A stretch of DNA of 49,006 bases, taken from a virus. Positions within the stretch are counted from its first letter, which is position 1. Every line of letters starts with the position of its first letter. The DNA is taken from IMG/VR virus record IMGVR_UViG_3300030117_000100, positions 1 through 49,006 of that record; one strand, 5' to 3'. Under the pieces are notes generated by a model. It searched no databases. It was not told where the DNA came from and saw nothing but the letters and a program-made list of their open reading frames with translations. Positions 21,270 through 27,714 of the stretch are shown here, one piece after another. Position numbers and translations under genes: made by a program.

Positions 21270-21275
21270 GTTATA
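21270..21275 (-). promoter_or_regulatory. Probable integrase promoter -10
   Basis: On the minus strand GTATAACTA (21276-21268), the same -10 block as the other promoters here, lies 29 bases upstream of the leader ATG. No good -35 is visible in the AT-rich upstream DNA, which instead holds the ACTTWAAGT array; one copy overlaps this -10. Activation or repression by an array-binding protein is likely. Confidence 0.5.
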
Positions 21276-21344
21276 CTTAAAGTTTATAATAATACTACTA
21301 TTAATATTAAAAAACTTTAAGTTTACTTTAAGTATACTTAAAAT
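21275..21344. repeat. Phased ACTTWAAGT operator-like array A (integrase)
   Basis: Copies at 21275-21283, 21314-21322, 21325-21333 and a weaker one at 21336-21344. The right three are spaced 11 bp, one helical turn. They flank an AT core containing ATACTACT and TTAATATTAA. The same arrangement exists at 27272-27366. Confidence 0.8.
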
Positions 21345-25673: not shown

Positions 25674-26189
25674 TTACGCTGCTGCTGTAATGCCTTTTTT
25701 GTCCATAATCTTTTTGTTGTTTAATTCTTTTTGAACCACTTGCAATGCTGCTATCATAGCGCCAATACGCTCTGGATTGCGTTTAGCAACGCCTTGAGCA
25801 TACTTGACTGGATCAAAGTCTACTACTTCTGCTTCTGTTCTAAATGCAATAGACCATTTAGACCCCCGCATTGAAATGCCATCGGCAACTAACTGGTTGA
25901 GTGTATCAACTGCACTATTCGTTAGCGTAGCATTTTTAGTTTTAATACGATGTTGATTAGTCTTTTTATCAATATTAATACTAACTCCAGACCATATTGC
26001 TCTAATGGTTAATTCAAAATTATTAGCACCATCTCTTTTAGATTTAATCTTATCTAACATCATAGCGATAATAGATGTGTCACCAGTTTTGATAGCATGG
26101 TTTACAGCGTCAAGAGTATTTTGACCCATTGCAATACCATTGCCTAAGTTACGTGAAAAGCTACCAACGAATTTTTTAATATCTTGCAT
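25674..26189 (-). CDS. First leftward gene, conserved unknown protein (171 aa)
   Basis: A soluble helical protein: MQDIKKFVGSFSRNLGNGIA, NHAIKTGDTSIIAMMLDKIK, KSKRDGANNFELTIRAIWSG, and an end rich in Lys and Ala. It is moderately basic. The Ser/Asn-rich segment around KKTNQHRIKTKNATLTNSAV could touch nucleic acid. It is closest to the leftward promoter and followed by its own terminator, as expected for a highly expressed early protein. No family recognised; an early host-interaction or DNA-binding role is inferred from position only. Confidence 0.7.
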   Translation of the reverse strand: MQDIKKFVGSFSRNLGNGIAMGQNTLDAVNHAIKTGDTSIIAMMLDKIKSKRDGANNFELTIRAIWSGVSINIDKKTNQHRIKTKNATLTNSAVDTLNQLVADGISMRGSKWSIAFRTEAEVVDFDPVKYAQGVAKRNPERIGAMIAALQVVQKELNNKKIMDKKGITAAA

Positions 26190-26235
26190 TGTATATCTCC
26201 TATTAATGCAATTACTGTTATCGGCATAACCTAAT

Positions 26236-26268
26236 ATTATACCGTCAATGTACTACGTGAATACATTG
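26236..26268 (-). promoter_or_regulatory. Leftward promoter with overlapping palindrome
   Basis: On the minus strand TATAAT (26241-26236) lies about 47 bases before the ATG of the 171-aa gene. The -35 area is weak but is covered by a perfect inverted repeat CAATGTA-N9-TACATTG (26246-26268), a good operator candidate for control of the leftward operon. Confidence 0.55.
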
Positions 26269-26280
26269 AAAGTATAACAT

Positions 26281-26309
26281 AGGGCATCAAGTATAAAACC
26301 TGATGCCCT
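26281..26309. other. Strong hairpin AGGGCATCA-N11-TGATGCCCT
   Basis: A perfect nine-pair stem lies between the leftward promoter and the structured region. For leftward RNA it would form near the 3' end of the candidate noncoding RNA; no clean T run follows on either strand, so it may be a processing or protecting structure rather than a terminator. Confidence 0.65.
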
Positions 26310-26319
26310 AAAACCTTTT

Positions 26320-26820
26320 AACATTCTGGCGATATCCCCTAATGTTTTTAACCGTAGTTAGCGGCTAAAAATAAATATCCGATTGATATGTAGAACTGTA
26401 TACATACCGCACAAAATACTTGGGACTGTTACCCTTTTTCATTTTCGAGTTTTGCGTTTGCTGCTCGTTACCCTTTATCAACCTATTATCTATACTGAGG
26501 CATCTCAAATACTGAGGACTGCTTCTATATGAAGCTACGCTTTTCACTTAGACATAATCTAAGCTAGTTTGAGCTATACCCTAAGACACTATTTGAATAC
26601 CTACCTTTGGAGTAGGCAACAACTAGAATTGTTTTAGCTGAGTATCGGTAAATGTAACGTTACCATAATTACATATCGGTTTACGAATATGGATAGATCT
26701 ACTAGTTAAACCACCGATTGAGAATAACCGTTCAGTGTAGATCTAAAATGTCAAATATCGTGGGCTTACAAGTGAGGGCTAAAACTCCGACTACTGCTTT
26801 GCCATGACCCTTAAATAAAG
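26320..26820 (-). ncRNA. Candidate large structured noncoding RNA
   Basis: There is no credible coding frame on either strand, yet the stretch is packed with perfect short stems on the minus strand: TAGATCTAC/GTAGATCTA, CCATA/TATGG, AACAA/TTGTT, CCTAC/GTAGG, CTTAGA/TCTAAG (5-base loop), GCTTC/GAAGC (5-base loop), CTCA/TGAG, CGAG/CTCG and GATAT/ATATC. It also has direct repeats CCTCAGTAT (two) and AAAGGGTAAC (two, flanking the CGAG stem). A TTGACT (26839-26834) could start leftward transcription. Strand choice and limits are inference. Giant phage RNAs such as GOLLD or ROOL are the nearest concept; I cannot match it to either. Confidence 0.4.
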
Positions 26821-26849
26821 CAATAATCCGTATAGTCAAGAAAAAATAT

Positions 26850-27235
26850 TAATCAGCCAGATAGGTATAAAAAAATCAGTCGGTAAATCAGATATGGTGT
26901 ACATAACTTTTCTGTAACTGATAATCATTCGCAATTATCATGTCATAACAGCCAGAATAGCCGCTATGTAATGTTATATTGTATAAAATTGTAAGTATTA
27001 TCAGTTAGTTACTTTAAAATTATGATAGTTTCTACAAACTGGCTAAACGCAATGTTATAACATAACAGCCGCATGGGTCATGGGGGGTATGCCCGTAGCT
27101 ATATATGGTTAATGACAGAGATGTGATTTTTTAGTTTGGACAAAATGTCGCACCTTTTACTAAAAACTGGCTGTTAACCTTAATTTTGTGATCACAAATA
27201 TAAAAACGCAACGTATTTAAAATAAAATTAAAAAA
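26850..27235. other. AT-rich noncoding control region, possible replication origin
   Basis: No gene is seen. It contains two CATAACAGCC direct repeats (near 26944 and 27061), two AATGTTATA repeats, the palindrome ATGTTATAACAT (27052-27063), a G-run element with TATGCCC downstream (about 27072-27095) and the palindrome TTTGTGATCACAAA (27185-27198). It lies at the divergence point of the two transcription units, where origins are often found. Origin function is inference. Confidence 0.4.
27185..27198. promoter_or_regulatory. Palindromic site TTTGTGATCACAAA
   Basis: A perfect 14-base palindrome 41 bases upstream of the -35 of the rightward promoter. It has TGTGA/TCACA arms like CRP sites but without the six-base spacer, so a CRP match is not claimed. 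It probably binds a dimeric regulator. Confidence 0.5.
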
Positions 27236-27239
27236 GTAG

Positions 27240-27268
27240 TTGACTTCGGAGGCAACATACATTATAAT
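27240..27268 (+). promoter_or_regulatory. Main rightward promoter TTGACT-17-TATAAT
   Basis: TTGACT (27240-27245), 17 bases, TATAAT (27263-27268): a near-consensus sigma70 promoter. The expected start falls inside the first ACTTWAAGT-like copy (27272-27280), so a protein bound there would block it. The leader RNA to the first gene would be about 190 nt. Confidence 0.85.
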
Positions 27269-27271
27269 TAT

Positions 27272-27366
27272 ACTTAATGTATACTTAAAGTAACCTTAAG
27301 TTTATTAATTACTACTAATATTAATAGTTATTATATACTTTAAGTAACTTTAAGTATACTTTAGTC
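27272..27366. repeat. Phased ACTTWAAGT operator-like array B (rightward operon)
   Basis: Left half copies at 27272-27280, 27283-27291 and 27293-27301. Right half copies at 27337-27345, 27347-27355 and 27358-27366, the last degenerate. Spacing is 10-11 bp, one helical turn, on both sides of an AT core containing TACTACTAATATTAATAG. It closely mirrors array A at the integrase promoter. Confidence 0.85.
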
Positions 27367-27427
27367 ATTACTAGAAACGATAAGAAGTAAAAATTATAAC
27401 TTTTTTTGTCGTAGCACATAAAAAGTG

Positions 27428-27456
27428 TTGACTTTACCAAAAAATTTAGGTATAAC
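27428..27456 (+). promoter_or_regulatory. Second rightward promoter TTGACT-17-TATAAC
   Basis: TTGACT (27428-27433), 17 bases, TATAAC (27451-27456) followed by TA. It is so close to the first ATG (27460) that a transcript from here would begin at or after that codon, implying leaderless translation or use of the Met codon at 27475. Confidence 0.7.
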
Positions 27457-27459
27457 TAG

Positions 27460-27714
27460 ATGAAGAAACCAGTAATGTATTCTTCTGACAATGTTGTGGA
27501 AGAATTTTACAGGGCATTAGCTTCAGAAGATGAAGGTAAACTACGTAGAGTACACATTCCTAGATCCGATGTATTCTACATTAGAGAAAAAATACGAAAT
27601 GATACAGGTATAAAGTACTCTCTAGACAGGGTAGAGAGAGCTATGTACCTTGAAGGCTATTTAAAAGCACGAGATGTGTTAGATCCTAGAAGAAAACGAG
27701 ATTGGGAAGACTAA
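27460..27714 (+). CDS. First rightward gene, unknown protein (84 aa)
   Basis: A charged, helical, slightly basic protein (VHIPRSDVFYIREKIRNDTG, RVERAMYLEGYLKARDVLDP). No ribosome-binding site precedes the ATG at 27460; a second Met is at 27475. The promoter at 27428-27456 almost abuts it, so the true start depends on which promoter is used. The stop touches the next ATG. It is conserved-looking but has no known domain to me. Position suggests an early-expressed rightward gene, possibly regulatory. Confidence 0.65.
   Translation: MKKPVMYSSDNVVEEFYRALASEDEGKLRRVHIPRSDVFYIREKIRNDTGIKYSLDRVERAMYLEGYLKARDVLDPRRKRDWED

Follow-up and report, generated by a model that had tools for sequence, protein, structure and literature searches.

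An apparently undescribed large structured RNA at the head of the replication operon in HMO-2011-type marine phages

The minus strand of positions 26279-26800 in an uncultured marine phage genome carries an evolutionarily conserved RNA structure of many helices; its transcription is inferred. The RNA is almost certainly real, and it apparently forms a class of large structured RNA not described before in phages, with transcription, ends and role all resting on inference. The element lies in IMG/VR virus record IMGVR_UViG_3300030117_000100 (49,006 bp), the whole of which is called the window here. Very few phage RNAs of such size and complexity are known, and the functions of GOLLD and ROOL are still open. 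This RNA heads a replication operon, its fold is backed by covariation, its gene partner, p171, is fixed, and its length allows direct synthesis and testing. In the absence of binding data, RNA and p171 form a defined RNA-protein pair with which to ask experimentally what large phage RNAs do. The RNA is a candidate new class of viral RNA machine or switch, its role being inferred.

Genomic setting and map of the RNA

The terminase and portal regions of the window match Roseobacter phages CRP-1, CRP-9 and CRP-13 and Puniceispirillum phage HMO-2011, and the window is therefore assigned to an HMO-2011-type marine phage. The cultured members of this group have SAR116 and Roseobacter RCA bacteria as hosts. 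The largest ORF-free gap, 26190-27459 (1,270 bp), is a divergent control region between the leftward 171-aa gene p171 and a rightward 84-aa gene (27460-27714). p171 is the first gene of a leftward operon that includes genes for a DNA-binding protein, integrase, primase-helicase, DNA polymerase, exonuclease, MazG and ribonucleotide reductase. ARAGORN found no tRNA or tmRNA gene in the window.

A first-pass annotation had suggested that this control region holds a structured RNA of about 500 nt, so far undescribed, within the largest noncoding stretch. Both claims held, the first in substance (through covariation and the lack of an Rfam match, transcription remaining inferred) and the second because the tract falls within the ORF-free gap. 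Corrections are needed: the RNA is on the minus strand, and it is placed as the leader of the leftward operon and not as an isolated element. The features are as follows, in the order of the leftward transcript after the overall RNA and its domains.

26279-26800, minus: large structured RNA of about 520 nt (model matches, covariation in both domains, conserved 5' motifs; exact ends inferred)
26279-26476, minus: conserved 3' domain (R1/R2 covariance model matches)
26477-26800, minus: more variable 5' domain (covariation, conserved motifs)
26834-26839, minus: TTGACT, putative -35 element of a leftward promoter (inferred from sequence)
26785-26795, minus: 5'-terminal motif AGTAGTCGGAG, part of a hairpin (motif conservation)
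26745-26760, minus: near-invariant motif CGATATTTGACATTTT (CGNTATTTGAMA), common even to the otherwise different leaders of L120, L157 and L087
26645-26675, minus: covarying 5'-domain hairpin with conserved TTATGGTAAC loop region, followed by ACCGA (two-sided changes in 7/7 pairs)
26600-26616, minus: hairpin CCTACTCCAAAGGTAGG, CTTACTCCGAAGGTAAG in L071 (compensatory C-G to T-A change)
26499-26580, minus: long-range helix GGTATAGCTCA (26570-26580) / TTGAGATGCC (26499-26508), enclosing hairpin 26516-26540 (5'-domain covariation, helices 2-4)
26446-26467, minus: helix A, C-G rich stem around GCAAAYGCAAA (3'-domain alignment, helices 1-2)
26383-26412, minus: helix B, within motif TGCGGTAT...ATATCAA (3'-domain alignment, helix 5)
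26345-26371, minus: helix C, TTTTTAGCC...GGTTAAAAA (3'-domain alignment, helix 6, strong covariation)
26280-26310, minus: helix D, 3'-terminal hairpin of the RNA (99.5% of cells paired; two-sided changes in 8/9 pairs)
26246-26268, minus: dyad CAATGTA...TACATTG between RNA and p171 (arms change together in relatives, judged by eye)
25674-26189, minus: p171, 171 aa, no known family, first gene of the leftward replication operon

At the 5' end, TTGACT is replaced at the same place by TTGACG, TTGTCT or TTGACA in several relatives, and the -10 element is poorly conserved. In the AGTAGTCGGAG hairpin, the part better kept among relatives is a loop of the GGAGTGA type. The hairpin at 26600-26616 is missing in several relatives and is regarded as an accessory helix. 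Helix B is extended in two relatives (L012/L100/L233; L067/L101/L220), where about 76 bases (GAAAACAGATATGC...GATATGCGTGTCGTTC) follow TGCGGTATTG and form a long extension arm. In the window, about 90 nt separate the 3' end of the RNA from the p171 start codon. The sequence contains no intrinsic terminator between helix D and that codon, and helix D is not followed by a U-tract, so that it is not an obvious terminator.

Relatives and covariance model

Homologous gaps were gathered by way of p171, a 109-aa neighbour, the 84-aa protein, DNA patterns and a p171 profile; for contigs with the 84-aa gene, the best 80 of 417 found were taken. Close relatives align across the entire gap, with segments replaced in a mosaic manner. 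Distant relatives, in which p171 is only about 40% identical, still have in common, on the minus strand ahead of p171, a series of motifs and hairpins.

The 3'-domain covariance model scores the window copy (26279-26476) at 148 bits and matches 23 other IMG/VR contigs, all uncultured virus sequences. Seven matches lie outside the training set and score about 65-136 bits: L230 at 136, L221, L217, L222 and L219 at 110-115, L207 at 108, and L130, a truncated copy, at 65. L194 also matches, but its core scores the same as that of training member L128, and it is not counted among the seven. On other lineages the second model, R2, gave marginal matches only.

Covariation, strand and the case against DNA sites alone

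RNAalifold assigns 49 pairs to the 3' domain (26278-26473, 13 sequences), of which 32 show two-sided compensatory changes. In a 24-row alignment of this domain, 96.1% of pair cells are standard, against 75.7% after shuffling, and compensatory double changes occupy 209 cells against 58 (0/500 shuffles). Moving the pairing partners by 1-3 columns leaves only 17-31 double-change cells, and two-sided changes are seen in 37 of the 49 pairs. This alignment was fitted to the model and is biased towards it.

The alignment of the 5' domain was made with MAFFT and not fitted, with the caution that the structure was predicted from the same alignment. For 11 sequences RNAalifold gives 26 pairs, 22 of them compensatory, including the long-range helix GGTATAGCTCA / TTGAGATGCC. 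The outcome resembles that for the 3' domain: 97.5% of cells are paired, and double-change cells number 61, compared with 18.8 after shuffling and at most 9 in slid controls. When seven relatives are aligned over about 510-535 nt, the joint structure contains 142 consensus pairs at -166 kcal/mol, 55 of which are compensatory.

Pairing is strand-specific. G-U cells number 119 and A-C cells 6, and the RNA is therefore a minus-strand product. The proposal of a structured RNA is strongly upheld by this covariation among homologues.

One alternative is that there is no functional RNA and that the conservation reflects only DNA sites or an unrecognised small protein. In its favour, a role as DNA sites is probable both for the dyad at 26246-26268 and for the palindromes at 27275-27363, and the RNA region of the window contains a 60-aa ORF on the minus strand. 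Against it, the strand-specific excess of G-U over A-C cells is not expected of DNA dyads, and the long-range helices covary. No conserved ORF was found in the RNA; the 60-aa frame is not kept in relatives, and a coding explanation for the region was rejected. Unless the alignments are artefacts, covariation contradicts this alternative, which is all but excluded.

The evidence from the window alone is much weaker. The first-pass annotation had pointed to two pairs of direct repeats, short perfect stems and a nine-pair hairpin that it placed at the border of the element. All of the named repeats and the hairpin are present where it located them, but the repeats and short stems fail as evidence. 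ATACTGAGG (= CCTCAGTAT) occurs at 26492-26500 and 26509-26517, and GTTACCCTTT (= AAAGGGTAAC) at 26428-26437 and 26467-26476; two direct repeats of at least 9 bp arise in 17% of dinucleotide shuffles of 26320-26820. Stems of 6 bp are not in excess in that segment (6, against 4.0 in shuffles, with 25% of shuffles reaching 6), and neither the AAAGGGTAAC repeat nor its CGAG/CTCG stem is conserved as such in relatives. These cues are at chance level and unconserved; the evidence for the RNA is comparative. The claim of a bordering hairpin failed, since the hairpin at 26280-26310 is the 3'-terminal helix and lies inside the RNA. Adding 26190-26320 raises the stem count to 14, against 5.7 in shuffles, an excess reached by 2% of them. 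The sole strong single-sequence fold signal is on the minus strand of 26221-26340 (-45.7 kcal/mol, z = -6.9) and corresponds to this supposed border hairpin. Across 59 leaders, single-sequence folding z-scores reveal strong hairpins beside the gene in many lineages; such scores separate the strands poorly.

Absence from known families and collections

At gathering scores, Rfam 15 yields no family match for the window or for eight relatives. Lax E-values returned snoU43, MIR7996, algC, Diantho_3_UTR and malK-II, all of which are at chance level, far below gathering scores, and were rejected; the Rfam screen is thus counted as giving no match at either setting. GOLLD, ROOL and OLE are absent from the window and the eight relatives at gathering scores and do not appear even at lax E-values, and no riboswitch or other Rfam cis-regulatory class matches the window or its relatives.

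Searches of other collections were likewise negative. The cultured relatives CRP-9, CRP-207, CRP-13, CRP-2 and HMO-2011 contain no covariance model match of note, the best being 12.8 bits in CRP-9. Three members of the RNA had no blastn match in a phage collection of 50,697 records. One DNA-pattern scan gave five hits in cellular genome contigs, none supported by the covariance model. No description of the RNA was found in the open-access literature searched; subscription papers and preprints were outside the scope of that search.

p171 and its association with the RNA

In every member whose sequence includes the gene, the RNA lies directly upstream of a p171-family gene on the same strand, with about 50-110 nt between the RNA end and the start codon. 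The association extends to members reached by a DNA pattern that is blind to the gene. A p171-like gene without a convincing RNA match is found in L223, L225, L227, L228 and L231. In a further p171 relative, L229, a marginal match of 19 bits is in the right place and is the best placed of the R2 matches.

p171 is a conserved, mostly helical protein with an SMRG..W..AF motif. Sequence comparisons with Pfam, PHROG and the PDB gave no family match of weight; the leading PDB profile match (E = 0.003) covers 56 residues of a ribosomal protein L23 and is disregarded. AlphaFold2 gives a good model (pLDDT 87), and structural comparisons with it are weak throughout: Foldseek against the PDB gives E above 0.5, the best viral match (E = 0.014) is an uncharacterised Sphingomonas phage protein, and VIA-align reaches Z of up to 5.2 to unrelated helical chains. 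p171 has no known family and, judged by this predicted structure, lacks a clear structural relative.

A cis-acting leader as the favoured mechanism

The most likely mechanism is control of p171 and the replication genes in cis, with the RNA as their leader, an inference that is as apt to be wrong as right. It is favoured by the position and strand of the RNA and the absence of a terminator. Transcription would start about 30-40 nt behind TTGACT (26834-26839), and the RNA would fold during its synthesis. It would then stay joined to the operon mRNA or be cut off later, as is suggested by the lack of an intrinsic terminator between the last hairpin and the p171 start codon. In this scheme the RNA would set expression of p171 and the replication genes in cis by one of two routes, between which the data do not choose. 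The first is feedback, in which p171 or another phage product would bind the RNA; there are no binding data. In the second, the RNA would modify access by RNA polymerase or the ribosome.

In several relatives a promoter-like TTGACN element at the 5' end of the RNA supports the cis leader; the promoter is only partly consensus. Against it, there are no transcript data and the -10 element is poor. Some relatives bearing p171 lack a convincing RNA match, and covarying leaders with the 5' motif precede unrelated genes.

Like riboswitches, protein-binding leaders and put-type antiterminators, the element consists of a promoter-like sequence and then an RNA whose end lies within about 50-110 nt of the start codon that opens an early operon in the same direction. 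Unlike them, it has no Rfam riboswitch or leader match and no identified terminator or ligand. It is also several times longer than a typical cis leader and much more elaborate than known ones usually are, which counts against the reading.

A possible free large RNA, and leaders before other genes

The main rival likens the RNA to GOLLD and ROOL, as a large phage RNA that is free and acts in trans; this seems the less probable of the two and is doubted more than it is believed. Such an RNA would use the same promoter, be cleaved or terminate near helix D, and act during infection as an RNA or ribonucleoprotein particle; p171 would be merely the next gene, or a protein partner. GOLLD, whose function is unknown, is a large, elaborately folded phage RNA in which the 3' region is conserved and the 5' region varies, and it has marine examples (PMC12286853). 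GOLLD, ROOL and OLE form ordered homo-oligomeric RNA particles, and GOLLD and ROOL are often located near phage tRNA genes.

The trans reading is supported by the size of about 520 nt and the density of helices in the seven-relative structure. This RNA resembles GOLLD in being large and elaborately folded, with a conserved 3' and a variable 5' domain. It differs in length (GOLLD exceeds 800 nt), in having neither an Rfam match nor tRNA neighbours, and in standing directly before a protein gene that heads a replication operon. With ROOL it has in common its size class (one solved example is 659 nt) and its phage origin; it differs in the lack of an Rfam match and in location, and nothing points to a free RNA or to multimers. 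Further points against the trans reading are that no terminator or cleavage site was recognised and that the RNA, where the sequence includes the gene, is always directly before p171-family genes.

Leaders before unrelated genes also bear on this reading, to which they lend support. Within 600 nt upstream of the left gene, L120, L157 and L087 possess long covarying leaders of their own (100 pairs in three sequences, 33 of them compensatory), with different downstream genes and the common motif CGNTATTTGAMA. In 45 other lineages CGNTATTTGAMA occurs 3 times on the leader strand and never on the opposite strand, compared with 1 occurrence in ten shuffled sets. These leaders hint at a possibly wider RNA group, and since they carry the common 5' motif before unrelated genes, the RNA is perhaps not tied to p171. 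A bolder reading, no more than possible, is that of a new class of large phage RNA machine that would act in trans, alone or with p171, in early infection of marine bacteria. The RNA would then belong, as one branch, to a broader group of structured RNAs in the same control region of HMO-2011-type phages, with different downstream genes and a common CGNTATTTGAMA 5' element.

A possible role in replication start, and other features of the control region

A transcript of the control region might instead prime or regulate DNA synthesis at an origin in the gap. The cumulative GC skew minimum falls at this divergent gap, at the head of the replication operon. Skew also flips with gene direction, however, and so is no proof of an origin. 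Neither iterons of the origin type nor an initiator gene were identified, and nothing links the RNA to DNA synthesis. This explanation is considered unlikely.

On the side of the gap opposite the RNA, L067, L071, L017 and L013 have a further segment, several hundred bases long and strongly conserved (CTCTCAGGAAACTTT...CAGAGGAAACATGATAGTATTCACGGT), which is missing from the window, L005 and L012. The records of the cultured relatives CRP-9, CRP-207, CRP-13 and CRP-2 (L182-L184, L186) start or stop inside the control region and have 0.9-1.5 kb unannotated before the homologue of the 84-aa gene.

Imperfect large palindromes of TTAAGTATACTT units occur at 27275-27363, between sigma-70-like rightward promoters at 27240-27268 and 27428-27456, and at 21274-21341, upstream of the integrase gene. 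The former is kept in most lineages that have the 84-aa gene, and the palindromes are likely operators of a phage regulator. At 27428-27460, the near-consensus promoter TTGACT-17-TATAAC stops 3 bases short of the ATG that starts the 84-aa gene, and the transcript of that gene may therefore be leaderless.
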